Of a stretch of 64,000 nt of DNA, positions 14,683 through 57,000 are shown piece by piece. A model generated the notes under the pieces. The model was not told the origin of the DNA and searched no databases. It saw only the letters and a list, made by a program, of their open reading frames with translations. Both the position numbers and the translations under genes were made by a program. How positions within the stretch are numbered: the stretch's first letter is position 1; each line of letters starts with the position of its first letter. Source of the stretch: Pocillopora verrucosa (taxonomy: Eukaryota; Cnidaria; Anthozoa; Scleractinia; Pocilloporidae); the NCBI RefSeq assembly GCF_036669915.1, contig NC_089316.1, positions 1,826,743-1,890,742 of the forward strand, in the 5' to 3' direction.

Positions 14683-17249
14683 CTACAGATGGGAACCGAA
14701 CCACCACTGAGTAGTTGAACCTTCTCCTCGAGTGCAGCGGAACTTGTGGTTGATGGCTCCATAGAACCCGAAGTTGTCTTCACTTACTACTGCGCCAGCT
14801 GTCGGGTTAAATTCGCAGCCGGCAGCACTGCTGTCGATGTGTAAGGAAAAAGTGTTTTCTGCCTGCCAGAATTTGGCTGTCAGATGTACACCACGGTGCC
14901 CGCGTATGTTAACGTATTCCACCTCCTTACACTCACCGTTTCCAAGAAAGTCGACAACGTTGAAATCCTTAAAGTTACCACGAACGTAGTCTGTAAAATC
15001 GACACCATGGCTTGGATAGCTGCAGGTTGCTCGCCAATGAGTGGAGTGGGCTGCAAGGGACCTAATGCGAGACAGACCCAAGCGGTAGACATTCCAGTTT
15101 TGGGAATTTTCGTTGACTGGAGCGTCAAACTTAAACGGAGTCTTGGAGAACTGGGGTAAACCCCTATTCTTCTGGTTGTAGGACATAACTAGGGTCCACG
15201 CAGTGCCAGGCTCGGACGTGAAGTCACAGTAGGCTGGAAAGCTATTGCCATAGTCGTCAAAGAGCCGGTAAATACCACACGTTGTCTTACCAGGAACATA
15301 ATACTCAACGCAGGACTTAGGGCGAAATGGGTTGAGTTCGACAGTGTTTGACTTTGGGCAATTATCTCCCTAAAAATAGATCGAAACATCTCAAGAAATA
15401 TTACATTTTACGATTTTCCACATAATATGGACTAAAAGAAATGCTCCTAGGCCCAGCAGACAATACGAACACGTGGGGGTTTTTTTCTTGGAAATACGAA
15501 TCCATAAGAGGTGTCGACCTGTATGCAGGAAAATAGGCAGGAGTGTCGTATTTTTTTCTGAGCTCATAGAAACGCATAACTCTAATTTTTGTTCTTTTCT
15601 CGCCAAAACAGGAGACTCGGAGATATATTTTGCACCAGTGATGTAATTCTCATGGGTCTCAAGTTTACGAAAATGAACCATAAATAACAAATAAAGCTCG
15701 ACCGGTAACTTTTAATCTCCCAAACCTATTGTGCATTACTTCTCCTGAGAACAAAAAACAGATGCACTGTTATGAACTACTCAATTTAGAAGTGTTTGGA
15801 AACTATTAAAATTAGGAATGTTTTCATTAAGTGTTTGGGAATTGTTAAGGCCTGTTAGATTAACTTGAAATCCTTATGTGAGTCTTGTGAGCCTTGGTTT
15901 GTTATCGGTGCTGCAAGATCACATTTTTATTTTTACCTTTTGAGTAATGTGTCATTGACTGTTGTAATATAATAGGGCTGAATTCTCGTACGATAATCGT
16001 CATCGCTAGTCGTGTTTGGGTTTGTCCCCGACCTCGCTGAGATTCCTCCACGGGAAGTTTGTTTTAGTTTTAATTCCCGAAGATTAGTTGTTTTTCAAGT
16101 ACGTTGTTGTTCATTTGGAAATTCTCGTGAAATTGTCTGGGTCAGCGTTCTATGATTACTCTGCCAATCTCAGTTTTCCCGTAAGCCCAAATATGCCTAC
16201 TGATGGATATTTAGAAGCATGTACTCAACGGGCTGAATTAAAGAGACAGATATATATTCAGAGAGTGAATAAAAGTTCCTGATCAGACTCTTGGTGCCTC
16301 CGTTTGCGCGATTGACTGAGGCTGGTTAACCCCAATAGTACAACAAACTTATTAGCTTACAAAGAAATGCATAGCAATAATAAGAAAAACACTTTATGAT
16401 GACTGAAACCCTGGGGGTTGAACCAGTACGAAATAAATTAGTCTACTTTGGTAGATCGATGTTATTTAAATGCATATCTTTAAATATCGCACCTTACATT
16501 CCACAGAACGTTTTTCTTTTTTATGATCAGTTGCCTCCAGAAAAACCTAAGGAAAATAATTTTTAAAAAAATCCGTTAACGTTGAAAGTAATTAAAAATC
16601 CAAAAGAAGGATCCATTTTGGCAAAAAAGCAAATTAGATTAAGTGAAAAACGTGAAATAAATTTCGGCTTTAGAATGCTGTCCATTCGCAGGTCAAACGA
16701 TCTTGATTATTTTGCTCGGCTTTAGCCACTTCGATAAGTTTGATACAAGATAAAACCACACTATTTAGTTAAGGATGTAGAGAAAAAGTTAAGGATCATG
16801 AGGAAAGTAGGGGAAAGAAGTGAACTGATTTTAGACCATGCATTGATTCATCTCGTTAATGCCCACATCTCTACATGGCATGTGTACATGCATTCTTCTT
16901 AAAACTGAAGCTTATTTTCAATACAATAAAAATTCCATTCTTTGATTTTCAAAAGATCATCAAGTGATCAGCATTCAGGAGGCTTATCACAGATAACCTA
17001 GTGTTTGACTTAACACAAAAAACGAATTTTGTGGTGCTCCTATGGAGCCACGAGATCCCAAGATCTGAGATTTGAATCCTCTGAGGGTACGGAGATTTTT
17101 TTGGAGACATCAGGTTTGCTCTTTGGCCTAAATCTGATGGAAAAGCTACAGAGTTATCAATAGATTAAGAAAAGAGAATGAAAGAAACTTACTGGTAGAG
17201 CAACAGCAAAGAGACACAGGATAACGATATAAGAACGTGGTGACCACAT
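14683..17249 (-). CDS. Secreted fibrinogen-like protein A (2 exons)
   Basis: Exon 1 (17249-17193) encodes the signal peptide MWSPRSYIVILCLFAVALP. Exon 2 (15369-14683) encodes the mature chain, joined in phase 0, giving 247 residues. Landmarks: NCPK, RPKSCVEYY, TCGIYRLFDDYGNSFPAYCD, AWTLVMS, THWRATCSYPSHGVDFTDYV, RGNFKDF, VEYVNIRGH, EDNFGFY and the end STTQWWFGSHL. CGIYRL...AYCDF...AWTLV matches the start of fibrinogen-related domains (fibrinogens have YCDM...GGWT). The rest is a lineage-specific version, which I recall from coral proteins named 'uncharacterized skeletal organic matrix protein 5-like'; that name needs a search. Secretion is clear; a matrix or recognition role is inferred. The gene starts 1.5 kb from gene B in divergent orientation. 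Confidence 0.85.
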
Positions 17250-18772: not shown

Positions 18773-20652
18773 ATGTTGTCGCCAAGTTCCTCTGCAGTGA
18801 TACTTTGCCTCTTTGCTGTTATTTTTCCAGTAAGTTTCTTTCATTTCCATTCTCCTCAACTGGATTCAGACAACAAGTATTTTTCTTACGTTCCATATTT
18901 ATTTCATCTTTCCATTTCGTAAACGTAATCGCAGAGCAGCGGAAGTGGCATGAATGTAGGCTTTAGTAACTTAAGAAAGTTAAGCTAAATCTCTGACCGC
19001 ACTTAATTCGCTGAAGGGAAGCTTTTCAAGCATTTCTGATCTGTGACAAAGCATGAAAATTTCAGAATTATGATGCTACTGAAGGTAATTTACTTTGCTC
19101 AGGTAATATCTAGAGCACAGCCTTCGTGAGGATAGTCACTCGACTTACGCGCTTAAAGTTTCGTTTAAATTTTGTTGGTCTTTTAGGTCAGGGGTGATCA
19201 TCATATAGACGAACATTCAGTGGAGTGTAAGGTGGGAAATTCTGATATGTAAATCTTTCTGTTATCCAAAGAAATCTCTCTTTATCATCATCCCCTTTCA
19301 ATTAGAGGTCTCAACGATTGGTAATTATCCGCACGAATTGGAAGACCTCCTTCTAAATTAGCTGAGAGAATCTGTTATTGTATCAAGTTTGCTTTGATCG
19401 CCTGTAGAATGGTGTTTTGCTACAGTGAGAAGAGGTTACACATTAATGAACTTAGGGAATGAAGGATTTTTTAGAGCTAGACTGAGTTCTTTTTTTCGCA
19501 TTTACGCAAGTTATCACAGGTTTGAAACTGTTAAAATTATAAAGTAAAAAAGAATTAAATCTTGACAGAATAACACACCAGAATTTGGGTTGTTAATTTG
19601 TAATAGTCTCCCTGGATTAAATAATAAATACCTAAACTGAGGTATACACTGTACCTGCATAAAGGTGGACGTCAAAGAGCCAAATTTAAATTTTTAGTTC
19701 ACTTCCGGTTGAAAGATAGATATCTTGTATCTTGTCACGGGAGAAGCGAGAAGCGAGAGCTTCTGATTCCGCCATCCGTGGATGTACCTCTGAACTACAG
19801 AGGCTCCACGGTGAGCCAGGCTACTGAGCACGAAGTTTAAATGTGACAGGTGCCTGCATATTTCTAATATCAGCAATTTCGCGATCGAAAGCGTCAAGTT
19901 CATAAAGGTAATAAGAAAGCTCGGCTTTGAAATTATTCCATTCAATTTCTGTCTATTACCAGGGAAATCACTGTCCCAAGCCGATGCCTGATGTTTATCA
20001 GAAACCATTTCGCCCTAAGTCGTGCGTTGATTACTATGCACCAGGCAAATCGACATGTGGCATTTACCGGCTTTTCGACGAGCATGGCAACAGTTATCCC
20101 GCCTACTGCGACTTCAAGTCTGAGCCAGGTACAGCATGGACCCTGGTGATGTCCTGGGCTAACATCAATCGTGGGCTTCCTGAGTTCAGACAAACTCCTT
20201 TCAAGTACGACGCTCCAATCAACGAGAATTCTCATAACTGGTATATGTACCGCCAGAGTCTGAAGCGAATAAGGTCCCTTGCAGCCCACTCAACTCACTG
20301 GCGAGCAACCTGCAACTACCCAAGCCATGGTGTCGATTTCACAGACTACGTCCGTGGTAACTTTAAGGACTTCGACATTGTTAACTTCATTGGGTCTGGA
20401 GTGTGCAAGAAGGTGGAACACGTGAACATCCGGGGACATATTGGCACTCATCTTACAGCACGCTTCTGGCAGGTTAACGACACTTTCACCTTGCATATCG
20501 ACAGCGCTAGTGACGGCTGCGATTTTGACCCAAGGGCTGGCTCGGTGCTGTCTGAAGACAACTTTGGGTTCTATTCTGTTATCAACCCTAAGTTCCGTTG
20601 CACCAAGAGAAAGTTCTCCACCACACAATGGTGGTTCGGAGCTCATCTCTAG
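18773..20652 (+). CDS. Secreted fibrinogen-like protein B (2 exons)
   Basis: Exon 1 (18773-18829) encodes the signal peptide MLSPSSSAVILCLFAVIFP; exon 2 (19963-20652) the mature chain; phase 0 junction; 248 residues. Exon 1 has the same length as in gene A and both share VILCLFAV. The mature chain shows HCPKP, RPKSCVDYY, TCGIYRLFDEHGNSYPAYCD, AWTLVMSWANINRG, THWRATCNYPSHGVDFTDYV, EHVNIRGH, EDNFGFY and STTQWWFGAHL. The cysteine spacing matches genes A and C. It was probably made by an inverted duplication with gene A. AATAAA at 20797-20802 is a likely poly(A) signal. Confidence 0.87.
19690..19830 (-). mobile_element. SINE-like fragment in the intron of fibrinogen-like gene B
   Basis: On the minus strand this includes GTGGAGCCTCTGTAGTTCAG and GGTACATCCACGG followed by repeated CTCGCTTCTC. 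The D-arm-like and stem-like pieces recall tRNA-derived repeats, but no full cloverleaf can be drawn. The limits are approximate. Confidence 0.3.
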
Positions 20653-22874: not shown

Positions 22875-25030
22875 TCACAGATGTGCTCCAAACCACCACT
22901 GGGTGGTGGAAAAATCCCCCGCTGTGCAACGGAACTTGGGGTTGATGGTATAATGATAACCAAAGTTATCTTCACTTGACACTGAGCCGGACCTCGCGTT
23001 GAAGTTACAGCCGGAAGAACTGCTGTCCGTATGCAAAAGGTAGCTTTTAGCCACTTGCCAAAAGCGTACGGTGAGGTGCAAGCCACTGTGCCCACGGATA
23101 TTCACGAACTCCACCTTCTTGCACTGACCAGACCCAATAAAGTCGACAATATTAAAGTCCTTGAAGTTACCGCGGATATAGTCTGTAAAATCGATGCCAT
23201 GGGTCGGGTAGCTGCAAGTTGCTCGCCAGTGAGTGGAGTGGGCTTGTAGGGACCTCATTCGAGTCAGACTCAGGCGATACATATTCCAGATAAGGGAATT
23301 CTCGTTGACAGGAGCGTTTACCTTGAAGGGAGTACTCCGCAAGGCAGACCAGCCACGATTTTTATTAGCCCAGGACATCACCAGGGTCCATGCAAAACCA
23401 GGCTCGGACTTGAAGTCACAGTATGCTGGGAAACTGTTGCCGGAAGAGTCGTAGAGGCGGTACATTCCACAAGCGGATGCGCCCTTCAGCAAATAATCAA
23501 GGCAGGAGGTGGGACGAAATTTCTTGTTGTCTTGAAAGTAATCCTTTGGTTTCGGACAAGAATCTCCCTGAAAGTCAGCGGAATAAAATTAGCGTGGTCA
23601 GCAGTCATAAAAAAAAAAAAAAAAAAAAAAAACCAATGGGATTGAAGGGTCGGGCTGAAAAACAACTTACGAAGGGGGAGAGTGAACGAAGGTTTCCATA
23701 GAGACCATCCATGGCGAGATTGGGAAATCTTAAGACTTAGAAATGCAAATTAATACTAAATTAGGTGGGAAGGCATGTTAAAAGTTTTAGTTTCCACTCC
23801 TTAACCCTCAGTGAGAATGGAAAATAATCCGGAACTCTCATTAACAGCGCACTTTTGTGACTGGTGCTGAGCGATTGCGTCACCCTTTTAATCAATGAGA
23901 TGCAAAATCAAAGATCTCTGCAGCAAATCCCGACTTACTCGCATGAATTACGGTTTTCACGCGTTTGAGGCCTTGTTTACTTTGGGCTCACGTTGCCTTC
24001 TTCTGATGTGTACCTTTTCCTGATTTTCTTTGCCTGAATCAGGAAGCAGGCTTAATATGTTACTTTTCCGTTTGACTGAAAAAATTAATCAAGTTTACCT
24101 GACACACAACACAACTCCGGTCATTCTCAGTTAGTCCTTAACAGCGGAGAAAGTGGGATTTCTTTGGGTTTTTCTTTCGTTCGCAGGTTAGTAAACCAAA
24201 CTGAATGAATCTTAAATTAGATTAACTATTAAAGCATTCTGTGCTCCAAATCAGAATTTCAAACTTCATAAAATTAATAATTTTCATTCTTTTATTTTCT
24301 AATTAATGCCTTAATGCATTGTGATCTTTGCTGCGCGATTTTAGGGAATGAAATGACTAAATCTTCCTACCTTGCATCCTGACGAATGTAGCGGGTTCTT
24401 GTTGTTTGCTTCTGTAAGTGCCCAGAAAACAAAATACCGCGGGTAATCAACCATTTATACCAAATTCGTCATGAAGTCCACACAGATTAAATTTTCCTAT
24501 TTCTGAGTTTGGAAACTCTTTCGAACAGATGCATACGACCATTGTTAGGAACTCAAGTGTAGCAGTAAGAAATTTTCAAATGTATAGTTCTTATGGTCAG
24601 CTATATTTTATAAACAAACTTTGAAGTTAGTCCGCAACAACTAAACATCATTTTCGCGATATGCTACCCTTGCTTGAGAATTTTCTCTTGCTTTTATTTT
24701 AATTAATCCGGTTTTAATTGTTTTTATGCCTTTGATTTCGAGAACCAAGTAATGAGTATTAGGGCGCGAACCCAAGAGCCGAGGCTGTTCGGTTTCAAAA
24801 CTTGATTCACGTGAAAGGCCTAGACAGCTTTGGGAGCTTCTACGCGTCAGTATCTACTAAATTTTTTCCTGGTTGTAAATTAGTTTTGAACTAGATCCGG
24901 TTTTGTCCAAAATAACAATGTTAAAAATATCGGTTTACACGACTAAGCCTCGACATATGATGAAAAAGTCAGTAAAAAACCCACTCACCAAGAAAACGAT
25001 TCCAATTAATGCGATTGCTTTCAACTCCAT
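22875..25030 (-). CDS. Secreted fibrinogen-like protein C (2 exons, first exon less certain)
   Basis: The main exon is 23567-22875 (231 codons including stop): SCPKP, RPTSCLDYL, ACGMYRLYDSSGNSFPAYCD, AWTLVMSWANKNRG, THWRATCSYPTHGIDFTDYI, EFVNIRGHSG, EDNFGYHY and STTQWWFGAHL. It begins after a CAG acceptor in phase 0, as in genes A and B. The best candidate for exon 1 is 25030-24989, encoding MELKAIALIGIVFL before a GTGAGT donor in phase 0; this leader is shorter and unrelated to those of A and B. An alternative small exon, MDGLYGNLRSLSPF, ends at a GTAAGT donor near 23670. The mature chain is certain, the leader is inferred. Confidence 0.8.
23609..23632. repeat. Poly(A) tract
   Basis: An uninterrupted run of more than 20 A in the intron of fibrinogen-like gene C. 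It could be a microsatellite or the tail of a retrocopied element; no element body is recognisable next to it. Confidence 0.6.
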
Positions 25031-27603: not shown

Positions 27604-27814
27604 CTAACTCTTTCAATCCCAAGATCTCATTAGTAATTCTCCTAACTATTGCTATACGGTTCTCATGGTGTTATTTTGGAGAACTCGGTATTTGATCAAC
27701 GAGTAATCCTCTAATTGATATTTTTCTTTATTCTCATCACTTATCTGGTTGACATTGTATTGATATTGTAAGGAGAAGTTCTGTCTTGGTCACTAGTAGG
27801 AGTTAAGGGTTAAG
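27604..27814. mobile_element. MITE, TTAACCCTTT family
   Basis: About 210 bases with related inverted ends (CTAACTCTTTCAATCCC and GGAGTTAAGGGTTAAG). Internal words such as AATTCTCCTAACTATTGC, CTTTATTCTCATCACTT and ATTGTAAGGAGAAGTTCTG are shared, in one orientation or the other, with the copies in EXOC3 introns. It has no coding capacity. Confidence 0.65.
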
Positions 27815-28411
27815 AGTGCCGCGTAAAAAGTCAATCAACAGGAGATGTTTACATTTGGAGGCTCAATGTCTAATTCTAGGAAACATTGCTTGATTCACAG
27901 ATTTTACATAAACCTTGAAATAAAGTGAGAGTATAACGAAAGAATTGAGAATCAGATCATACGTTTTTAGCTGCCAATGTTTATTCTTGTCAGAGTATGT
28001 TTTCAGTCGTGTTTGATGTAAAATGTTAAGAGGGAAGAGTAAGATAAACAGATCATCCGAAAAGCGACGAATTTATTTAAAAGAATTTTGAATATTGATC
28101 TGGTAAGTGATCACGATTAATAACTGAGTACAAAAATTAACTGCTGTAATTAAAATAATAATTGTTCTGTTGACTGAATCAATTTTGTGATATTAGTGAG
28201 TTAAATCATCTATAAGTTCATAAATCTGGTAACTTTAAGTGTGCCTTTGCTAACGAAATGAATCAGCTTCACATTGTCATGTTCGATTCCTATGTATCAC
28301 CAAACAATTTAGCACTGCTTTTTCAATGTATTTTTGGGAGATTTGAATCTTCTGATCTGAAAATGTCATGAACCCTGGCAAACTGCCGAAACCTGCATAA
28401 TCTCTTTCTTC

Positions 28412-29266
28412 CTACAGACTTTTCTTTATTTCTTCAAGTTGTACCAGATTAGCGATCTTCCTGGCGAAATCGACAGCAGCCAAAACGGTCAAAGCAATCT
28501 TTGCTATTAGCGCTGCTCCTTCTGTGGCAAGGGCTGCTATGATCATGGCGCTCACCTTCGCTGCGGTCTCCAACCAGTCGTACCATTTCATCTCTCTGCA
28601 CAAACTCTTGATGATGGTCCACAACAATCCAGCTGCGTAGGTTTCTTTGAGGAGGAAGAAAATGGCTTTAGCCTTGTTAGTTGCACTGCCTCCCGCCGCT
28701 TTCCACGAACTGACAAACTTCTGTATCGCTTGCTGGAATGCTGAAGACTTCTTAATTGCTTCCGCGGTGTCTTCAATGGTGGCTTTCATGGTGCTGCTGC
28801 TTACAGATACTCCGATCCCAACTGCCTGCATGACAAGCATCACCGCCTCCACCACAACACTGGCGTACTGAAGAATCGTGGCCCAAACGATGTCAGCACT
28901 CGCTACCAGTTCCCTGGATGGTAGGAACTCCTCTCCTTCTCTTGTCAACTGCACCAGATGTTTGCCATTGTCCATCTTGCTTATTTCCATGCGGAATGTT
29001 GGAATGGTGAGCGCCTTTTCAATCAGCCTGATTCGATCTTCGGGCAGATGCTTCTCAAGGCGCTTACGGATGTCTTGTTCTGGTTGAGAGGCAAACTCGT
29101 GAGCGAGTTTCACTTCCTCATCGGCGGCTTCCCTCGCTGCTGTAGTGATAGCATCTTTCAATTTCCCGTCTGCAATGAGCTTGGAATGCTCTTCAGGAGC
29201 GTTCGTTTTAATCTGCACCAACGCCCCCTCTACAGCTTCCGAGATTTTCTTATTATCTGTTGTCAT
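28412..29266 (-). CDS. Uncharacterised helical protein, copy 1 (intronless CDS)
   Basis: 284 residues in one exon; ATG at 29266. I do not recognise the family. It has no signal peptide; the N-terminal 120 residues are charged and predicted helical (RKRLEKHLPEDRIRLIEKAL, then PTFRMEIS). After FLPSREL comes a run of amphipathic and hydrophobic helices (VVVEAVMLVMQAVGIGVSVS; AGLLWTIIKSLCRE; KWYDWLE) ending in an alanine-rich hydrophobic hairpin (MIIAALATEGAALIAKIALT) and a charged tail. The layout suggests a protein that can insert into or lie on membranes, but that is only inference. A leader exon ends at 29878 and splices to 29291. Its paralogue lies at 34576-35475. Confidence 0.85.
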   Translation of the reverse strand: MTTDNKKISEAVEGALVQIKTNAPEEHSKLIADGKLKDAITTAAREAADEEVKLAHEFASQPEQDIRKRLEKHLPEDRIRLIEKALTIPTFRMEISKMDNGKHLVQLTREGEEFLPSRELVASADIVWATILQYASVVVEAVMLVMQAVGIGVSVSSSTMKATIEDTAEAIKKSSAFQQAIQKFVSSWKAAGGSATNKAKAIFFLLKETYAAGLLWTIIKSLCREMKWYDWLETAAKVSAMIIAALATEGAALIAKIALTVLAAVDFARKIANLVQLEEIKKSL

Positions 29267-29290
29267 TTTCGATCAAGGAAATTTTAAGTT

Positions 29291-29962
29291 GCTGTGAATG
29301 TAAAGCATTCAAGACCAATTTCAAAATGTTATTGCAGATTATACACCAAGGTACGCAAATACTGCTGAATAATCAAATTTAATTTCAATCAAAAGTAGGG
29401 GAAATATCTTCAGATTTGAACCTCGCAAAAGTTAGATGACGATCACTGCTGAAGAAAGCTGTTTCCACACGGCATATCTAGGTATCACTTTAATTCATTT
29501 CGAGGGCACTTTTCTGACCAACATCATTGCGAGACAGTTGAACGGAGAGATGAGTACCGAAACTATAGGTCATAATCATCTAAACCTTTTCCAAAATACA
29601 ATTACAAAATGTGACAAAATTTTCTTCAGTGCTCACAGTTATTTCGCTCATTCAGACAAATGTTTTAACATCGATGCTAAAGCGATTCTCAACGAACGAA
29701 GTCAAATCATCACTAATTAGTTCCGCATATGCGCTTGCCCAACAAAACGCTTTACCAGCCCTAATTCGAAGAGCACTTTAACTGAGCTATAGAATGATCT
29801 TTTGTTATTGTCAGCTTAACTTGAAAGAAATCTAAATTGATCAACATAATGTTCCACTAGGAAACCTGCATGCTTACCAAATTTAACTGTGCCAAGCTCA
29901 GAGTTCAGCTTCAAGGGAAGAGATGTAAAGTGCTTTTGATGTTCTGAACGTTCAGTTTATAC
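29291..29962 (-). promoter_or_regulatory. TATA box, non-coding first exon and leader intron of helical gene 1
   Basis: On the minus strand: GTATAAA at 29962-29956, then an exon of about 50 bases ending AAATTTG at 29878 with donor GTAAGCATG, and acceptor TTCACAG at 29292 followed by CAACTTAAAA before the ATG. The matching parts in copy 2 (donor GTAAGTACA, acceptor TATGCAG then CAACG) lie in the same arrangement. The intron is 586 bases. Confidence 0.65.
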
Positions 29963-29999
29963 GTATCAACTCGTCCATCACGTGATAGACACGAGTTGA

Positions 30000-31750
30000 G
30001 TTAAGTTCTCATTCTATCTCGGCGCTTGCTGATTGGTCCATTGTGAATCACCTGATTTTCTTACTTGTTTACATCTAGTGCTAAATTTGGTTCCACCTCA
30101 AGAAACCGATGAACTTCTTGCTTTACTCGGAATTGAACATAAATAGCTCCACACAATAGAAATACCCAATATCACTGAGCCTAAATTTCTCGGGGCTCTC
30201 TGATTGGCCTATTGCGAAGTTACCTGATTTTTTTCATTTGTTTGCATTTCAACATCTAACAATAAAGGTAATGAAGGTCAAAACTCCTTGGCGTAGTTAT
30301 TGAAAACATATTCTATATCCAAATATATTACAGAATATCATTTTTTTGCCAATTCAGGCGTAAACACAGAACCTCTCCTCTAACAATGTTAGTGAAACAA
30401 AACAGTCGTCTGGTTAATTTTTACAAAGCGCACAAAATTCGACATTGTTTGAAGGAGAGAGGGATTTTAGTAATACTGCGATAAGTGTTCCAACACTTTT
30501 AATCTCCCTTGTAGATTTTTACACTCGGCATGCTCGGTTTTCAAGACAGGTTTCAACAAGCTTTCTAATTTTTTTGGAGAATCTTAAGATTTTTAATATA
30601 ACGACTTACTTGCACGGAGGAGCTGAGAGTGCCATATTAAAGCAAAAAATACAATATTTAGAGACATCGCATCAAAATAAGTTGACGAGACACAGACACT
30701 GTGTTGCTTCTTATACTTGCACATCAGTCATAAATGATTTGCACACCTAACTGAACAAATCACAAAGCCATTCTGTATACTTACACTTATTGTAGAGACA
30801 GTCTCTTTCCTACTGATCGTCTTCGTCAAATATAATCGATTAAGTTTGCGATTGTGGCTATCAAAATCTCTTTTCTTAAGCGCTTGCAGATTGATTTAAT
30901 GTCAAATCTCCCAATTTTTTTTTCTTTACATTTGATACTTGATTGCGTTGCACTTTCAAAATGAGTTTCCTGCTTTTCCCAGAATTTGGGATAAACAGCT
31001 TATCACGAAAAAAAATCCTGACTCTTGTCATCACCAGGCCTGACTTTTCGGCGTTACGTAGAATACCATTCGAGAGTGAAAAATGTACGCTTCATACACA
31101 GGTCCTTCAAAAGATTAGTAGATTATGGCTAAGTACTTTTTGTTTTTTTACTTAACTCAATTTTGTGTCCATCCATTAGAAAAGAGGAAGAACAAGGCCG
31201 ATAACAGGCCAGTTTGATGAGGATGGGTTGTTTTCACACGACAAAACTTTCGGTTGCAGTTCAATTTCAACTGAAGTCACAACAATGAAATCACCACCTT
31301 TTTGACACTTGATACTCCATTTTGCGTTGACAGGTCTTAATCCCTTTGTTTTTCTCGGAAATTAACAGACAACTACAACAATGGAATCTAAAGGCATATC
31401 TGCCTGATTGCCATATTAAACTGTTCCAAACTCAGACGTCGGCTGCAATGGAATAAATGGGTATACCATTGATATTGAGAACTTTCAGGTTATGCGCGTG
31501 GACATGTCGATCACGGAAAAGTCACAAGTTAAATTCGATTTGTCTATTGCTGAGTTACATGATTTTTTTTTATCTATTTACATTTGATATTAAAAATTGG
31601 CTTCCGGGTTTTCTCGGAATTTCATATAGCTTAATGTCTTAAATAGAGATAGCTCAGCACAATAAATTCGCCAACTCTTGACATCAACTGGCCTGATTTC
31701 TTGGAATGAAATAGTGAGGTATGAGAATTAAATTTCTGTGGTATAGAAGC
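30000..31750. repeat. Degenerate ~100-base repeat array upstream of helical gene 1
   Basis: Related blocks recur: TTGTTTACAT/TTTGCATTT/ATTTACATTTGATA, followed 30-50 bases later by TTCTCGGAAT-like words and then AGCTC-ACACAATA or CAACAATG-AATC. Copies are seen near 30060-30170, 30205-30260, 30930-31060, 31250-31290, 31340-31390 and 31560-31690. Similar blocks lie near 36330-36480 and 25975-26095. Confidence 0.5.
31395..31480 (-). promoter_or_regulatory. Relic of a third helical-gene first exon
   Basis: On the minus strand this matches the leader exons of both helical genes (CAATGGAATAAATG on the plus strand here, CAATGGAAGAAATG near 36135; CTGTTCCAAACTCAGA here, CTGTGCCAAGCTCAGA at 29890). 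The donor has decayed from GGTAAG to GGCAAT. No coding exon follows it before gene 1. It is either a remnant of a lost gene copy or an old alternative promoter. Confidence 0.5.
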
Positions 31751-31849
31751 TGATACCAAATCGATTTTCAGGCCTCGCGGGAGCCTTGCCTCGGCCTCGC
31801 TCTCGCCCTCCTCAACTATCACGCGATGTATGTGAGACACGTGTCACAT

Positions 31850-34040
31850 GTGAATCTGGTAAGTTCTAATGACGGCCTCGCTCACCATAGAGTCTCTGTA
31901 GCTCGGTGACTGAGCTTCGAAAATTTTGTTACAATTTGAAATTCAAACTTTTACAATAAAAGATCTACGCGCGTGAGTGTGTGCGTTGTTTTTCTTTTTC
32001 TTGGTTGCTATCGCGAAACTTGTTGTGATACCGTTTCCCGAGTGTCTTGCGTTTGCGTCCTGCGGATCAATGCTTATGTCCACTTTTTAAAAAGCAGCGT
32101 CGTCGTTTTTTTAATGCCTGTAAAGCTATGCGCCTTTAAGGTAAATGTTTTCTTTATTGCGAGTTTCTTTGAGTTTTTGTTCTCGAATATGTATTTTATA
32201 TTAGTAGCATAGGCGTTTGTATGATTTAAATAAATGGATGAGCACAATTACGCGTGACTTCGCCCATAGTTGTCGTTGTTTTCGTTTTTAACGTCGATGC
32301 AATCCAGATTATTTCTGTTAACTTTACCTAATTATCTCTGAATAAAGCATTTTCTAATAGAATGGGGGAGAGAAGGAGAGTTTTCAGGACCACTAAGATT
32401 GGGATATATCTCAATCAGTACTCGAGGTCATGAACGAGGGGAAGAATATTGAGTTACATACACTCGGCGTTGCGGAGTCATCGCGGGTCTGGGTCAGGGA
32501 TTTGGATTGGTTGTGGAGACTTGGGCGAATTAAAGACTTGAATGTAGAGAGAAGTTTTTTGTTTGAATTCGAGCTTGAACGAACGAGGTAAAAAACCTTC
32601 TCTCCCCATCCCGTCTCTGAGCTGCCGAGCCTTAAAAACCGCCCTAGTCCTCACAACCAGTCCCAGTCTCTGGCCCAGACTTGCGGTGACTCTTTGTCTC
32701 TCCTTAATTTGACATTTATGATATGTGGCTAAGGAGAGACATTTCCTTTTTTGGACGAGAAGAAGGTGGAAAGGAAGGAAGACTATTGTACGACACTGAA
32801 CCTCTGTAAGTGAAACTGTTTTTGACAAAGTTGGCTCGGGGTAGTGGAGTAACTAACTTGCCCTCGAAGTTTCTTAAAGAATAATTAGAACTGAATTCCA
32901 TCCCGATAAATAAACATAGAGGGCAAATATTGCGGAGCAAGGCCATTTAGAGACTTGCAGATCATAGCCGCTGTTTAAATTTTCCGTTGCGTTTCAAGTT
33001 TTCCCAATCCAAAGATTTGAAAAGATCGTCAGCACTGACATCATAGGAAGAGTAGGTCACAATGTTGAGTAGGGATTAAATCGAAACAAAGGATTTGCGT
33101 CATCATTCCCGCTCGCAGTATCAACAGTAAGGGGTTAAAATGGAAGCCAGGAAAAAAAGGCCGAGGAAAACATTGATTAAAAAAGTTTTTTTCATTTTTT
33201 TATGAAATTTGTGAATAGCTGGTTGTGGTTTATCGTCGCTAAAAGCGCCAACCTCAACCTTAGCATAACATGTGTTAAACTGTTCCATGCGTTCAGTCAG
33301 TGAAACGAAGCGCGATGATAAACGGCGATAACATACATGGCGGAGGAGTGAAAAAACGAGCGTCGCTTGGGTCGAGTCGCGTAATGAACGTCTGTGTTCT
33401 TTTTTCGCTTTTTCACTCTGCAGCTATTATGGTGTCGCTTAGTGTTTCGCTTCGATTTGATAACTGACGCCTGGAACATGCTAATCATCACTGAAAGGTT
33501 AACAAATGGCCTCTTGTATGTTTACGTCGGAATTTGCAATTTAACCTCCAAGCTTCGCTTTCATGAAACAGTCTGGGGAAATCCCAAAACATGTCCGATG
33601 TCCATGGCAAAGATTCAAGAAAAACTTAGTGCTTGTGAGTTCTCGGTGACATCGTCGTATTTAAGAGCTATTTGCCGATGGGTTTTTTTCTTGGAAAAAA
33701 TTCGTTTCACGGGGAGTTTGACGTTTTTTTACTTCATAGGAAGGGCCTTTCAGGCGCTACATTCAGTTTAATTGACTTACCGATGTCGGTCGAGCTGAGA
33801 AACTGGTCTGCTCATTAAATTTTTTGTATATTAACACTCTCGCTGCCGTCTTCGTAATGCCGAGTTTCCTTTAAAGTCTAGTAAAATTGTTTATCTCTGT
33901 GCCAGATCTTTTGAAACCAAGCCATATATTTGAAGTATTTGTGTACATAAAAAATACCGCAGCTCCTTAGGGGTTAGTAGACGGGCTAATTAGGGGCTCG
34001 GAACAGTCCTCGACCTCGTGACGTGATGTCTTGAATATTC
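31850..34040. other. Spacer without recognisable genes
   Basis: Open frames here are short and not protein-like. A possible SINE scrap (AGAGTCTCTGTAGCTCGGTG) is at about 31888. CpG-containing stretches occur at 31770-31830. Nothing else is supported. Confidence 0.4.
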
Positions 34041-34044
34041 TTGC

Positions 34045-34560
34045 ACGGGCAGCTGCCAATGTAATCTTTTGTCTAGTGTGTTTTGGTTTTCGATTGAAAC
34101 AATATAATTAAGGGGAAAGAATAATTCAGATCGTCTCAAAAGCGAGGATTTTTTTATAAAAAAAGAGTAATCTAAAGAACGACTAACTCATTTTAAACAA
34201 TTTTATTTGCTGGTGCTTCTGATCGAGATAGCCGGTTCACTCAGTTAAATTCGGCTGCTATATACAATAATTTTGTTGTTGACAAAGTCGATTTTCTCAC
34301 ATCTCACGGTGAAATAATTTTCATTACTTTCATAAACCTACTAAATATGTTAAGAGTGCGCTCCATAACAGCTGGAAATCACTCTACAATAACTCCTTGC
34401 CGGAATGTAACAGTTCACTCCATTGTCTTCGATTCCTATTCATCACTAATCGGTTGCTGTTTTTTTTCTACAATTTCGAGGGACTCTGGCATATATTACA
34501 AAAGCTTGCAGTCTGACTGTCCTCTTAAAAATAATTTACTCATGTAAAGTATACACATAG
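34045..34560. repeat. Duplicated 3' flank of the helical genes (partner 27968-28360)
   Basis: AGCTGCCAATGT opens both flanks. Further matches are AAAAGCGA(C)GA, TTGTTGTTGAC against GTTCTGTTGACTG, and TTCGATTCCTAT(T/G)(C/T)ATCAC. So the duplication that made the two genes carried about 450 bases of downstream sequence. Confidence 0.65.
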
Positions 34561-34575
34561 ACTGTAATACCTGTT

Positions 34576-35475
34576 CTAAGGTAGATTATCGGAACCTGTA
34601 TGATCTCGTTCTTTTTGTAGAGTTTTCTTGATCTCTTCTTGTTGTACAACATTATCGATCTTCCTGGCGAAGTCAACGGTCGCTAGGACGGTCAAAGCAA
34701 TCTCAGCTATTAGCGCTGCCCCATCTGTGGCAAGGGCTGTTACGATCATGGCGCTAACCTTCGTTGTAGTCTCCAACCAATCGTACCATTTGGTCTCTTT
34801 GCACAAACTCTTGATTATGGTCCACAGCAATCCAGCTGCGTAGGTGTCTTTAAGAAGGAAGAAAATGGCTTTGGCTCTCTCGGTTGCGCTGCTCCCTGCC
34901 GTTTTCCATGTGCTGACAAACTTCTGTAACGCTTGCTGGAATGCTGAAGACTTTTCGATTGCTTTCCCAGTGTCTTCAACGGTTTCTTTCATAGTACTGC
35001 CACTTACAGATACCTTTATGCCGGCCGCCTGCATGACAAACATCACTGCTTCCACTACAATACTAGCGTGCTGTAAATTCATGGCCCAGTTGATGTCTTC
35101 GTGTGCTGCCAGCTCCCTGGAAGGCAAGAACTCCTCCTGACCTCTCTTTATCTCCACCAGAGATTTGCCATTGTCCATCTCAGGCTTGCTGATTTCCATA
35201 CGGAATGTTGGGATGAAAAGAGCCTCTTCGATCAGCTTGATTCGGTCTTCGGGTAGATGCTTGGCAAGGCGCTCGCGGATGTTTTTTTGAGGTCCACATT
35301 CAAACTCGTGAGAGAGCTTCACTTGTTCCTTGGCTATTTTTCTGGCCGTCTCCTTGATAGAATATTTCAATTTTTTAAATGCAGTTAGCTTGGAATACTC
35401 TCCAGGGGCATTATTTGCAATATGCGCCAATGCCATTTCTACCGCTTCGGAGATTTTCTTTTTATCTGTCGCCAT
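34576..35475 (-). CDS. Uncharacterised helical protein, copy 2 (intronless CDS)
   Basis: 299 residues; ATG at 35475. By eye it is about two-thirds identical to the protein at 28412-29266, with an indel (EISKPEMDNGK against EISKMDNGK) and a longer charged C-terminal tail (LQKERDHTGSDNLP). Conserved blocks: RLAKHLPEDRIKLIEEAL, PTFRMEIS, EEFLPSREL, the GI(K/G)VSVS turn, SSAFQQALQKFVS, AKAIFFLLK, TYAAGLLWTIIKSLC, KWYDWLE and the alanine-rich hydrophobic hairpin. Both frames are open and differences keep residue character, so both copies look constrained. The function is unknown; no enzyme motif is visible. Confidence 0.85.
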   Translation of the reverse strand: MATDKKKISEAVEMALAHIANNAPGEYSKLTAFKKLKYSIKETARKIAKEQVKLSHEFECGPQKNIRERLAKHLPEDRIKLIEEALFIPTFRMEISKPEMDNGKSLVEIKRGQEEFLPSRELAAHEDINWAMNLQHASIVVEAVMFVMQAAGIKVSVSGSTMKETVEDTGKAIEKSSAFQQALQKFVSTWKTAGSSATERAKAIFFLLKDTYAAGLLWTIIKSLCKETKWYDWLETTTKVSAMIVTALATDGAALIAEIALTVLATVDFARKIDNVVQQEEIKKTLQKERDHTGSDNLP

Positions 35476-35494
35476 TTTGCAAGGAACTCACGTT

Positions 35495-36180
35495 GCTGCA
35501 TAAGAAAAGGCAAGAACGATTTCATAACACTTCATCTTAGTAGCTGTCTGTCAGAAATACCTAACATTACAACCGAGAGTGCAAATAGAGTTGCATAACA
35601 TTTGAGATTAAAATAACCAAAACAAAACAAATTTGTCATTTCTTCATAAATGGAACTGTAAAACACAAGCTCGATGAGGATCTTCACGCAAAGAGCGGTC
35701 TGTTAAAGAAATATATCATACTTATATGCAATTCTTACGTCATTACTCTCCTGTTAACTTTAGTAAAATAACGAAACAGTAGGGGATTTAGGGGTACAAG
35801 TAACGCCTTATGAGTACTTTAAACCGTTCTTAACTACATACAGAAAATGTTTTAAAATCTTTCCAAAATTTCCTTGCATATTGCGCCAGAGATCTTTTTA
35901 ATCGCTCGATCCCTAAGTGATTTTAGCAAGTTCGGTTAAAACCTCTCCGAACTACTTCAGTCGCATTTGCACGTACGTTGGTTTTTTTTTTCTTCTGCTC
36001 CGAAAACAGTTTAACTAGTGTAACAGTCTAGCATATGATTTTGCTATGCAAAGGTAGAGAACTTTGAATCATTTTTCATATATACTAGAAGATGTACTTA
36101 CCAGACACAGCTAGGCCAAGCTTACAGTTTAGTGCAATGGAAGAAATGTAATGTTCTGGAATAGATGTGTTGTTTTTATA
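35495..36180 (-). promoter_or_regulatory. TATA box, non-coding first exon and leader intron of helical gene 2
   Basis: TATAAAAA on the minus strand at 36180-36173. The first exon ends at 36102 with GTGTCTG and donor GTAAGTACA; the acceptor CTTATGCAG ends at 35496 and is followed by CAACGTGAGTTCC and the ATG at 35475. The intron is 606 bases. The organisation is the same as copy 1, so promoter and leader were duplicated together with the gene. Confidence 0.7.
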
Positions 36181-51059: not shown

Positions 51060-54000
51060 ATGTCCTTCGAAATTCAGAGGTGGAAAGCTGAGGCTCATGA
51101 AAATGCTGCAAAGACCGTGGCAAATATGCTCCAAGTAAGATCCTTACTGCGATGTACAACGCTTGTTCAAGCACCTAAAAACAATATTCAGCTGATCGAA
51201 ATATATCAAAACATGTTGCCCCACAAATGTATGGGTGTGGAATTTAATCTTGGCAAAACTTGCAATGTACCTTGTGCTAGGATCATTGAAAGAGATAGCA
51301 GTGAATAGTGTGATCGTTTTGTAAACTGTCAATTTCTGTTTTCATCGATTTACAATCGAGTATTCAGCACTAAACAGCTTTGTCTGAGACAGTATTTAAT
51401 AGGGTTACACTTCAAGATAAACCCACATAAATCAGTTTCCGTCATGCCTGATGGCCAAATTTTTCCGATTTTTTAGCATCCTGACAGCCTGGACAAAGTG
51501 GAACAATGGAGACGGAGATATATGAGAAACAAGGTTTGTTGCAGTTCATCATTGCCCAATGCACATTCTAACCTCATTCTGGTGGCTGGAACCAGGACCT
51601 TTTTTCTTGATCATGAGTTCAACCCGTCCTCCTTTGATATTATACATAAGTGTGGAATGGAAATGTCGTCTATAAAATGGGAGGCAGTGGAGGACTATCT
51701 AGTCTACACTCCTCAAAGAAGGAGAAATGACACAATGGCCATTATTGTGTGTCAGTGAGATGTAAATAGGTCATCTTGTATTCTAAAGTTCTGCAGAAGT
51801 GATCATTAGTGTTTGAGTTATTGAATACATGTTAAGCCAAAGGGGGAGAAAAGCACATTCAGTCTCATTAGGCATGCTTTGTAGGGAGAAAATTTTAACT
51901 TTGTAATACTTCACAGGCATCAGCTGAAGCCAGACTGAAGACAGCTGTGCAGTCCCAATTGGATGGTGTCAGAACAGGGCTTCATCAGCTCCATGGGTGA
52001 GACAGATCTTGTATATGACAGAGTCAAATTATAATTCAAATTTATCACAGTTTTAATCCTGGTTTTGATTTCAAGTTTTTTAATTTGGAAGGTTTTTCTT
52101 TTCAGAGCTCTTCAAGATATTAAGGAAATTAAGAAGAGGTAATTAATAATATTTATCTTCAGATGTAACAATCTGTTACACCTAACTGTTTAGTTGAAAT
52201 CATTTTGACTGGTTTAGAACATTTTACTTTGAGTTTTCAATTTTTGACAACCTTAACTTTGTGAATTGCCAGAAGTTTTAAATTGTTCACTGCCAGATTT
52301 ATACCATACAAAAAAAATTTGGGGGTTCACAAGGTGTTGATCTCATTAATTTAGTCCTGTTATTAAAAAAAAAAAAAACAAAAAACATAGAAAGCATCTA
52401 AATGAAGATTTTTAGATATATGAAAATTCACATATTTGCACTGCGGTGGAAAGATGAAATTAGGAGATCCTCGCAGCTAAGAACACTACTGAAACGAGTA
52501 GTTGTAAATAGGACCTGAAAAAAATTTCAGGCCCGTACGGGATTTGAACCCATGACCTCTGCGATACCGGTGCAGCCTTCTACCAATTGAGCTAACAAGC
52601 CAACTGGGAGCTGGTCAATGAATTGGGTCCAAATAAACATCCAAGTGAATGAAGATTTTTAGATATATGAAAATTCACATATTTGCACTGTGGTGGAAAG
52701 ATGAAATTAGGAGATCCTTTATTTGGACCCAATTCATTGACCAGCTCCCAGTTGGCTTGTTAGCTCAATTGGTAGAAGGCTGCACCGGTATCGCAGAGGT
52801 CATGGGTTCAAATCCCGTACGGGCCTGAAATTTTTTTCAGGTCCTATTTACAACTACTCGTTTCAGTAGTGTTCTTAGCTGCGAGGATCTCCTAATTTCA
52901 TAGAAAGCATCTGTTACTGGATTTGTTCAGTATGCAAATTTTTGAAATTCTACTAAAATCGTAAAATGAAATTGAGTTCCTGAAATTCAGAAACATTTTG
53001 CACTAATTTATGAACCTCCATTATTTAATTAATTCTCATTTGATTCTAAAAAAAATAATAATACCTAATTTTTTATCAGCATGAATGAAGTGGATTCTAT
53101 GTGCAAAAATGTGGAATATTTAGCAGATGAGCTGCAGACTGTTAGGGACTGTCAATTACACCAGAGCAGGGTATGTATGATCATGTAAAGGTTAACCTGT
53201 TACACCCTATCATCAGTATGTATATTCTCCATACTGTTCTCTATACATTTCCTGAAATGCTGACAAGGAGAATATATTTGAAAATCAAGAGCTTTATAAG
53301 TTGGTGATGATTTCCTTTATTCTCATGACCTTAATGTTTGATTCAGGGGTGATATTGTAAGGAGAAATTAGAAGCTGATCACTCATAGGGGTTAAGGAGT
53401 TAAAGGTCTGTATACAAACCAAGTGGCCCATCCAGCCTGAACTTATTCAGTTTTCTGTAGCATGAGGTGATTAGAAGTTTTGCTAACCCTCCCCCCCCTC
53501 CCCCCCTCCCCCCCCCCCCCAAATGGGATCCTACTGAAAGATTACTCCCCAGCATTTCATAAAATAGAACAAGTTTATAGGTCTGTCAACTTACCAGGAC
53601 CTTCAAGAAAGGGGCCCCAGGCCAGGTCTTAAATATGGGCCTCTCAATCCACAGAGTCCAATGCACTAAGCATACAGCTGCTGCACCTCCCACTCCAATT
53701 ACCTCTAGGGGTGAAAATTCATGTTAGCTGTAGTGTATTGATTTTTAGTATAAATTAATTTCTCTAATATTATTTCCTCAACAGATATCTAAAGCCTGTG
53801 AACATCTTAATCTTATCTTCACTGTTCCAGACAGTGTAAAAAAAACAGAAGCCTTGATCAATGAAGGAAAACTTCTCCTTGCTCACAAATGGTAATGAGC
53901 ATTACGTTGCATTGATCATGGCAATCATTTAGTAAACCTTACTGTAAAATGGCCACTGAAATTTTTAAGCAGATGGATACTAAACTGCATATGGAATGAT

Positions 54001-57000
54001 GTAGATGAACACCAAAATAATGTATTTAAAAGCAGCTAACCATCTATCCTGAGTTTTGACCAGTTAGATTTATTTTTTTGGCCAAGAAAGTGTTATTTAA
54101 GTTGGAAAAATTGCAGGCATATGCGTGGAAGAGGGTATTTGCTAGACCTTCACAGTCGTACATATGGTAGTTGTCATAAATTGTAGTTTAACATGATTTC
54201 AAGCTAGACTTGATTTGTAGTTTCTTTTGCTTCAGGATTGTGTTAAATGTATCAAGAGCAAAGATGAAAACAAAGACATCTAGTTTTAGATTATATACAC
54301 CCAAAATTACTTTAAGTTTCCACTGCATTTGATAATAACCTTATGCCCAATGTAAAAAAAAGAAGAAGGTAGATGGATGTAAATGGATGTAAAAAAATCC
54401 TGTTGAATAGATATTAATTCTAAGCACTGTGGTCAAATGTAGTTTATCAGACTTGGAAGCCACCAGGGATGAACTCCTGCTGGAAGTTCACAAGATGGCA
54501 CAGGAAGAAGAGGGTCCAAAACCTGATAAAACAGTGAGTTTGTTGTAACATTTACTAAGCTTGCAATATATACAACGACTTTAAGATATTGTTTTGCTCT
54601 GCCTTGAGCTTCTTCTCTCTGCTCCATTTTGATATGTCAGCATTTTGGATTCCATTTGTAATTGAATATAACACCATGCAGTGTAAAGAGACTGCATTTC
54701 TTTTGTATGAAATAAACTACTAGTTTCAGTTTTGTCCTTCTAAAATTGAGCTGTGATTTGCTGGTTTTAATGGGACTGTTGAGCTCAATACAAGTGTACA
54801 ATTACATTCTACAAAAATTATGTAGAAACAGTAGACAAAATGATATTAAAAGGTTGAAAGAACCTTAAAGTTTGTAGTGTCAATATACCTTACTTACTCT
54901 GTTTTCACTTCCTCTTTCTCCCAGCCGCTGTACCAATACTTTGATGTAGTCAAAAAGTTATCAGTAAGTAACATGTGTGACTTTATGATTTTTTTGTCTT
55001 CTTGTACAGCAAGCCACTTACGTTTAACCCTTTACACCATAACATCAGTAAAGGTATTTTCCATGCTGTTCTCCTTTAACTCCTATGAGTGACCAAGACA
55101 GAATTTCTCCTTACAATATCAATACAATGTCAACCAGAAAAGTGATGAGAATAAAGAAAAATATCAATTTTTGGGTAATTAGTTGATCCAATACCAAATT
55201 CTCAGAGCTAACATTACAAGAATTGTATAGTTGACAGTAAGGAGAATTATGAATTTGATCTGGGAGTTAAAGGGTTAAAGGATTAAACCAAAGGAAATGG
55301 AAATATTTCAACATCCAAATTGAATGAGTAGAGGAAGAAATACATCATTGCATTTAGGAGATGTTTGATGGATATCCTTGCAATTATTTTTCCAATTTTT
55401 CAGGATTCCCTTGGCAAACAGTGCTGGGTTGTGTTGGGGAGAGTGCTTAGTACAGTTCGCAGTGACCCCGCCCAGTTGGTGACAGCCCTAAGAATTGTTG
55501 AAAGAGAAACAAGGTATCATCTGCTTTGCATTATATTCTATTTTTTTGGATCAACTTATATATTCTCAAGAGTCATCTCTTAACATTTTTACTTACGAAG
55601 TTTAGTGAACTTGCCAATATATGGAAAGTATTTCATCTTAGTTATCCATCTACAGTTTTCTCCTAACCAGTTTAGTCTAAATCAGGAATTATCACGAGGA
55701 GAAAATAGCAAATGATCACTGTGAGGTTTAAGCAAAGATATAATCCTTGCAGTTGGGCTGCAAACATGAAAAAATTCAGGCTTTGGTGGGATTTAACACT
55801 TTAACTCCCAAGATCTGATTGTTAATTCTCCCCTGTAGCTGCTACACATTTCCTTGTAAATAAGTTATGAGAACTTGTTGCTAGATCAAGATAGCAACCT
55901 CTACCTTATAAGTTTGAATATTCTCATTACCTGTTTGCTGAAGAATGTATGAATATTGTAGGGAGAAGTTTAATGTTAATCAATTCTGGGAGTCAAAGGG
56001 TTAAACTGTCTCTTGGGTATTCTAAGGAAATACTAACATTACTGAGCTACAAAGCGAGATGTTGGGAGAGAGGAAAATTTTCAGTTTCAAATGGTTGAAC
56101 TTTGAAATTCACTTACAGTGCATAATTTTTGAAAAAAAATTGAAACTACTGTATTGTATCAGAAGAGTTTTAATATTCATGTATCATCTACTCACAGAGC
56201 TGATAAAAGAGCAGAGGAAAAAGAAAAAAATATGGGATTTTCTGTGCCTGGGCGGCCTAAGAAGTGGAGAGATAAAGCATTTAAGGTTCTAGAGGAGTCT
56301 GTCAGTAACAGGTTAATATGCAGTTATGAAAATTCTTGAAATTTAAAGAGAATGTTATTTTGGAATATTTCTCACATGTCACTGTAGATTCTAACTGTGA
56401 ACAGGTTAAGAAGATTCTGACATTTGTTTCCTCTTCAGCTATTAATAACTTTTGTATAATGCATACTCAAGAGCAATGTAGTGTTTCTTTGTTGTATATT
56501 AATGGTGGATTTTACCATCTTGTTTTCTGCACTACTTCTCCTGTCTGTCTCTTAAATTTTCCAAGATGTACACACTATTTCGTACTTCCTCTGTCACAGG
56601 GTAACCAGTTCTTTGTTGGCTCTGGTGGCATCACTGTGCCTGGGTCACAGGGGATGCTAGCTTTATGTGTGGTTTACTTGCGGGGAGAGCCCTTGAAAGA
56701 ATTGCATTTACATTTACATTTACCTCAAGCAGTTATGACATGATTTGGGAATTTCAGGTTTGAGAGTCTTGACATGGAACTGCAGGATAGAATGGATGAC
56801 AAGATGTGGCTGGTGAAACATCTTGAACGCACAAGGCTACTTGTTTTGGATGATTTGATTGTCGTCAAGGTTTGTTTTCTTACTCACCCTTATCTCATTA
56901 ATGCCAAATGACAAAAATTTCATCATTACTGAAAGAAGCAATTTTATTAACTTTAACCTTTCAACTCCCATTAGTGACCAAGAAAGAATTTCTCTTCATT

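Follow-up and report, generated by a model that had tools for sequence, protein, structure and literature searches.

The closest described relative of the genes considered here is phrog_3518, a cluster of Synechococcus phage ACG-2014f proteins and their relatives in the PHROGs library that carries no assigned function and consists of proteins of 149-208 residues in which a helical core of about 130 residues follows an N-terminal part that is short or missing. Colicin-like and other alpha-pore-forming families, helical bundles that contain a hydrophobic, alanine-rich hairpin, offer a working analogy. Published reports document microbial genes in animals, with 41 cases of bacterial gene transfer in anthozoans, some of them proteins named only as 'hypothetical' or 'predicted' (PMC4878875), and in insects the phage-borne gene cdtB, which derives from APSE phages (PMC8455502). 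Here we describe two genes of the stony coral Pocillopora verrucosa in a window of 64,000 nucleotides, the whole stretch of DNA that was analysed (assembly GCF_036669915.1, contig NC_089316.1, positions 1,826,743 to 1,890,742). Both lie on the minus strand, copy 1 at 28412..29266 (P0001, an open frame of 284 codons) and copy 2 at 34576..35475 (P0002, 299 codons), and the C-terminal half of each protein matches phrog_3518. We read the locus as two animal genes in tandem, both maintained, whose helical module is shared horizontally, may be derived from microbes and may act on membranes, a reading to which we give a probability of about 0.4. In the literature that was searched phrog_3518 is nowhere named, and nothing on this gene was found.

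A helical core common to the coral pair, phages and bacteria

The phrog_3518 profile matches the C-terminal half of P0001 with an E value of 4.8e-12 and that of P0002 with 2e-13, spanning profile positions 65-189 of 203 and leaving the short phage N-terminal part outside the match. As judged from this alignment the coral proteins carry the core domain of phrog_3518 and are not full-length members. In order to place the limits of the core we used a custom profile of nine viral sequences and one bacterial sequence from which the animal pair was excluded and a tenth viral contig (L023, truncated at the contig end) was omitted; it delimits residues 136-261 of copy 1 (28484..28861, minus strand, 41.9 bits) and residues 138-269 of copy 2 (34669..35064, minus strand, 49.8 bits).

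Animal and microbial proteins are both rich in alanine and hydrophobic residues, which raises the question as to whether the likeness is merely a chance similarity of alanine-rich helices. The custom profile gave the pair 50.4 and 42.6 bits, whereas none of 20,000 shuffles exceeded 13.5 bits; in half of these shuffles composition was preserved in blocks of 20. In the reverse direction, with a profile of the pair, the protein of a Marinoscillum metagenome-assembled genome (MAG) reached 47.3 bits, and scores for the nine viral sequences ran from 14.4 to 35.6 bits. The top score among 10,000 shuffles was 14.0 bits, about level with that of the weakest viral sequence (14.4 bits). Shuffle controls in both directions thus refute a chance likeness, which we consider hardly credible. 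Profile-profile comparison gave a probability of 97.2 over 122 columns, and coral and phage proteins share the order of the hydrophobic segments and an A-T-[DE]-G-A-A turn that is present in both animal copies. The core acidic residue of helix 1 is D in the phages and in Marinoscillum and E in the pair. On these comparisons the homology of the hydrophobic half to the phage and bacterial domain is firm.

The animal proteins differ from the cluster in two respects. They lack the C-terminal cysteines that are conserved in most phage members, and the charged half at their N-terminus, about 110 residues long, is unrelated to the phage proteins. This part (residues 1-115) is encoded at 28922..29266 in copy 1 and at 35131..35475 in copy 2, both on the minus strand. 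In copy 1 it falls outside the profile match and no relative of it was found beyond the pair. By eye the N-terminal half of the coral proteins seemed possibly homologous to the stretch ahead of the core in a Bacteroidota protein discussed below (G140), an idea that was discarded when profile comparison gave it no support.

The searches of Pfam, NCBIfam, PADLOC and PDB with the pair returned nothing credible, PADLOC giving no match at all. Matches to 7TMR-HDED, nitroreductase, RPN13_C and DivIC were weak, far below their cut-offs and never common to both copies, and we likewise rejected a model of sulfoacetaldehyde dehydrogenase (E 0.0007; 18.5 bits, where the cut-off is 600), SLATT_fungal (in three of ten members, best E 1.7) and PDB matches to designed helical proteins, leucine dehydrogenase and similar entries (E 0.07 or worse). 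The colicin-like and alpha-pore-forming families, too, gave the pair no sequence match in Pfam or PDB, and a plasmid search with P0001, P0002, P0003 and the core of the Bacteroidota protein G986 found no match. A preliminary description of this DNA, made from the letters alone, had expected no well-described family to match, and in the profile searches that were run only the functionally blank phrog_3518 did. Its view of both proteins as having a charged N-terminal half and a hydrophobic, alanine-rich C-terminal half was likewise borne out. Its suggestion of an undescribed family stands in so far as the function is blank, and falls in so far as the phage cluster already exists; its plan to count the family across cnidarians was too narrow, the C-terminal half belonging to phrog_3518 with relatives in bacteria.

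In order to look for further copies the whole assembly (353,415,432 bases) was searched, with match counts that are lower bounds. P0001 found itself and copy 2; the phrog_3518 profile found the pair at E 2.6e-10 and 1.6e-11, and the next place, at E 0.94, was treated as chance. The Marinoscillum protein found the pair alone (E 1.9e-10 and 3.6e-10), the N-terminal 115 residues of P0002 found just copies 1 and 2, and the G986 core found copy 2 only (E 0.027). No third copy was therefore found in the 353-Mb genome with these five kinds of probe, within counts that are minima.

A duplicated gene pair under selective constraint

The two proteins are identical at 208 of 284 aligned residues (73%), and their difference in length is made up of 2 internal and 13 C-terminal residues; copy 1 DNA beyond its own stop still aligns in frame with copy 2 in a tblastn comparison. 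Differences between the coding sequences are distributed over the three codon positions as 52/37/93, most of them at the third. The NG86 method gave a nonsynonymous divergence (dN) of 0.162 and a synonymous divergence (dS) of 0.700, with a ratio (omega) of 0.23 (bootstrap 95% interval 0.16-0.32, 400 resamples), and other estimators gave about 0.23 (LWL85), 0.31 (maximum likelihood) and 0.41 (YN00). The N-terminal part appears looser, with a median omega of 0.32 for residues 1-115 against 0.17 for the remainder. The constraint earlier suspected on both genes is thus upheld by a dN/dS far from 1 under every estimator (0.23 with NG86, up to 0.41 with YN00), and these codon comparisons indicate that both copies are maintained under selective constraint. 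Coding GC content is 0.49 and 0.46, against a window mean of 0.385, and is uninformative as to origin because another exon-like frame in the window also reaches 0.49.

Each coding region is one unbroken frame, and the predicted intron is confined to the leader, in agreement with the earlier account of intronless coding regions; that account gave the genes' positions as 28412 and 34576, where the loci do lie, these coordinates being the 3' ends of two minus-strand genes. GT donor and AG acceptor motifs together with the alignment of the flanks predict 5' leader introns of 586 nt at 29877-29292 in copy 1 and 606 nt at 36101-35496 in copy 2, both on the minus strand. The acceptors occupy corresponding positions and lie 25 and 20 bases ahead of the ATG, respectively, so that the leader introns of about 600 bases described previously are probably correct as to both size and place. 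Motif search found a TATA-like element at 29956..29961 in copy 1 and at 36175..36180 in copy 2 (both minus strand), each starting about 80 bases ahead of the donor. The copy 2 bases aligned to the first are not a TATA motif, and the second lies inside an insertion relative to copy 1. The term copied promoter, used in the preliminary description, is thus valid for the region and not for the box, because the TATA motifs of the two copies do not align with each other.

The duplication of the gene pair is real, and the copied stretch extends about 750 bases upstream and about 450 bases downstream. In the 750 bases on the 5' side 447 of 656 aligned bases are identical, a score that none of 290 random window pairs reached, these control pairs themselves containing other true duplications of the same window. 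The promoter and exon 1 (90/120 identical; 1 of 288 random pairs scoring as high) and the 60 bases directly ahead of the ATG (36/48; 2 of 287) are part of this similarity, and the 500 bases on the 3' side have 192 identities in 258 aligned bases (1 of 291). Further out the following 750 bases on the 5' side hold a weak stretch only (8 of 287 random pairs as high), and the following 450 bases on the 3' side show no similarity between the copies (243 of 287). The 3' flank of copy 1 that is common with copy 2 runs over 27970..28411, locally aligned to about 28046 and followed by eye to about 27970, and that of copy 2 over 34052..34575, aligned to about 34160 and followed by eye to about 34052 (both minus strand). 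The roughly 450 bases of shared flank noted previously hold with this extension by eye.

Other repeated sequences occur in the window. A dispersed repeat of about 200 bases is present in four copies that are 77-84% identical (27605-27809, 55073-55279, 56952-57153 and 62465-62678), the first of which sits just past the shared 3' flank of copy 1. A second duplicated block near the window start comprises 56-657/4834-5406 and 2045-2420/7508-7880 (88% and 81% DNA identity), the latter pair with a PAN domain. Three related frames of about 230-245 residues with 72-76% DNA identity lie at 14683-15369 (minus), 19915-20652 (plus) and 22875-23588 (minus); they have a fibrinogen-like pattern by eye, and a scan of two of them found no Pfam match at E 0.001. 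Finally, 52454-52901 forms a long inverted repeat, perhaps a mobile element, in which about 450 bases match their own reverse complement with 88% identity.

Microbial relatives and a possible action on membranes

Against phage records P0001 had no match at E 1, and P0002 had 48 matches at E 10, of which 45 were from Synechococcus, two from Mycobacterium and one from Escherichia phages. With a phage protein as query 45 of 50,697 phage records matched, all of them Synechococcus phage ACG-2014f, and scans of IMG/VR gave ten contigs with relatives. In the four loci scanned the phage relatives lie in late or structural gene regions: in ACG-2014f flanked by gp16 (small terminase) and gp17 (large terminase), in two contigs (L021 and L022) downstream of a major head protein, and in a third (L019) at a distance of two to three genes from a tail fibre and an endolysin. 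Such locations would fit the descent of the coral genes from a holin, that is, a phage lysis or host-takeover protein whose pore was reused by the animal. However, an endolysin lies nearby in just one of the four scanned loci, the best holin model (TIGR01598) is weak at E 0.14 and 12.4 bits against a cut-off of 39.7, no holin family matched the pair above cut-off, and the relatives, at 149-210 residues, exceed most holins in length as holins are generally known. We consider descent from a holin quite improbable.

In four of six neighbour proteins scanned, the protein adjoining the phage relative contains DUF6321 (PF19846), and the other two had no Pfam match. The four (L006:6576-9395, L010:4636-5379, L014:3324-5291 and L019:4690-4992) occur in two unlike phage gene orders, and the domain is a possible partner.

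Among bacteria a scan of 84,980 species genomes, which relied on two short patterns and so would miss divergent members, confirmed one locus among 366 candidate stretches. This is the Marinoscillum sp. MAG, whose protein P0008 (L011:4480-5112) is the best single relative of the coral proteins (35% identity over 119 amino acids, E 1.9e-10). Its gene looks chromosomal and stands next to one for a calcineurin-like phosphoesterase, and its N-terminal part is phage-like, unlike that of the animal pair. Whole-genome profile searches around this MAG, in overlapping draws each of which counts the MAG itself, found relatives in 2 of 395 and 1 of 395 genomes of the phylum Bacteroidota (the latter with the phrog_3518 profile), 1 of 390 of the order and 3 of 390 of the family.

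These searches added a Bacteroidota protein, G986, and tentatively two others, G821 and G140, that contain the helical core. G986 (551 amino acids) has the core at E 4.2e-16 and 46.4 bits with the phage and bacterial profile, and after it come six repeats with a spacing of about 52 residues; the five compared pairwise all beat 500 shuffles each. No match to these repeats was found in Pfam or PDB, and they may resemble propeller lectins. G821 (546 amino acids) looks like G986, and its core matches at E 1.5e-6, or 2.5e-8 once G986 had joined the profile, with the wider profiles only; at 2.4 and 13.8 bits it is not above shuffles with two profiles, and its place as a core-bearing relative is tentative. 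G140 (1013 amino acids; L041:4208-7246, minus strand) has a Laminin_G_3 domain (E 1.1e-38), a region that also matches the lectin-fold model of a neurotoxin receptor-binding domain (E 2.7e-9), then a hydrophobic helical stretch with a weak core match (E 2.9e-4) and finally a domain resembling PI-PLC, whose Pfam match (E 2.4e-4) falls just short of the cut-off and whose PDB match has E 8.1e-15. Its core match, seen with a single profile and at 10.5 and 8.6 bits below the best shuffles, is also tentative because weak matches of the widest profile proved unreliable in four more Bacteroidota (E 0.003-0.009). None of those four was counted, leaving 3 of 390; two of them are presumably channel- or transporter-like membrane proteins and one of TPR type. 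The animal pair has no counterpart of the six-fold repeat joined to the core in G986 or of the lectin-like and PI-PLC-like domains joined to it in G140.

This bacterial company of a repeat domain, lectin-like and lipid-cleaving domains and a phosphoesterase favours an action on membranes. The core would form a helical bundle that passes from a soluble to a membrane state through several helices of marginal hydrophobicity, with the C-terminal hairpin around the A-T-[DE]-G-A-A turn inserting into the lipid bilayer. In P0001 and P0002 there is no obvious signal peptide, so the animal protein may act on a membrane from inside the cell, permeabilising or remodelling it, perhaps in defence. In the pair, the phages and Marinoscillum alike, Kyte-Doolittle hydropathy over 19 residues has three to four peaks of 1.4-2.1 at corresponding places. 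Two points tell against an action on membranes. Wimley-White octanol sums are mixed in sign (-0.8/-2.3, +5.0/+5.0 and -2.7/-3.3 for the pair), because of which the buried core of a soluble bundle fits equally, and the evidence from neighbours and fusions comes from few bacteria, among which only the G986 fusion is beyond doubt. We can therefore propose insertion of the helical domain into a membrane only tentatively.

A soluble regulator or scaffold, in which a buried bundle serves dimerisation or binding and never enters the membrane, is a serious candidate that we also place somewhat short of even odds. It would account for the acidic residues within the hydrophobic segments and for the mixed octanol sums, and the lack of an obvious signal peptide and the charged N-terminal half suit it as well. 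It sits less easily with relatives that are joined to or lie beside repeat, lectin-like and lipid-cleaving domains, and with a C-terminal hydrophobicity that is preserved from phage to animal.

Origin of the coral genes

A possible history is that a bacterium or phage was the source of the ancestral gene, which, once acquired, gained a promoter of animal type, a first exon that is non-coding and is followed by the leader intron, and the charged N-terminal half, after which a segmental duplication of about 2 kb would have produced the tandem pair. Unbroken frames with an intron in the leader only, an animal neighbourhood and microbial relatives fit such an acquisition. Contamination is argued against by the position of the locus on a 28.8-Mb contig and by window neighbours with domains of animal type (rhodopsin-type receptor, F-box, PAN and SET/Rubisco-LSMT). 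On these grounds we lean towards a transfer in the direction from a microbe to the animal lineage.

Several observations speak against this history. In an unrooted tree a very long branch (2.78 + 1.66 changes per site) separates the pair from all other sequences, and adding two bacterial cores leaves the tree star-like and without direction. Intronless frames occur in ordinary genes too, and a comparison set of one animal genome, phages and bacteria would be compatible with an old eukaryotic family. In that case the domain would be older than the animal and patchily kept across domains of life, with no recent transfer into the animal, and phages and bacteria would have inherited it or obtained it from another source. 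The long branch and the star-like tree are as such a family would have them, and in bacteria the domain is likewise rare and scattered: the phrog_3518 profile found it in 1 of 395 Bacteroidota, and the searches of the order and the family gave 1 of 390 and 3 of 390 genomes, respectively. The pair is however alone in this genome by the five kinds of probe and its coding frames are without introns, neither point being decisive, and we regard an old family as somewhat unlikely.

Within the microbial origin that we prefer, a more specific account is that the animal domesticated a late gene of a tailed phage, or a bacterial effector module also carried by phages, supplied it with a new N-terminal half, promoter and leader intron, duplicated it and kept the two copies to attack membranes from within the cell, for example in antimicrobial defence. 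Taken as a whole this account is unlikely.

What appeared to be an orphan pair of animal genes thus has a domain that, by profile comparison, is common to an animal, tailed phages and Bacteroidota and for which the searched libraries name no function. If it was acquired from microbes, the pair would add to the bacterial genes known from anthozoans (PMC4878875) and to the phage-borne genes of animals (PMC8455502). Whichever its origin, phage, bacterium and animal provide three experimental entry points to one domain.

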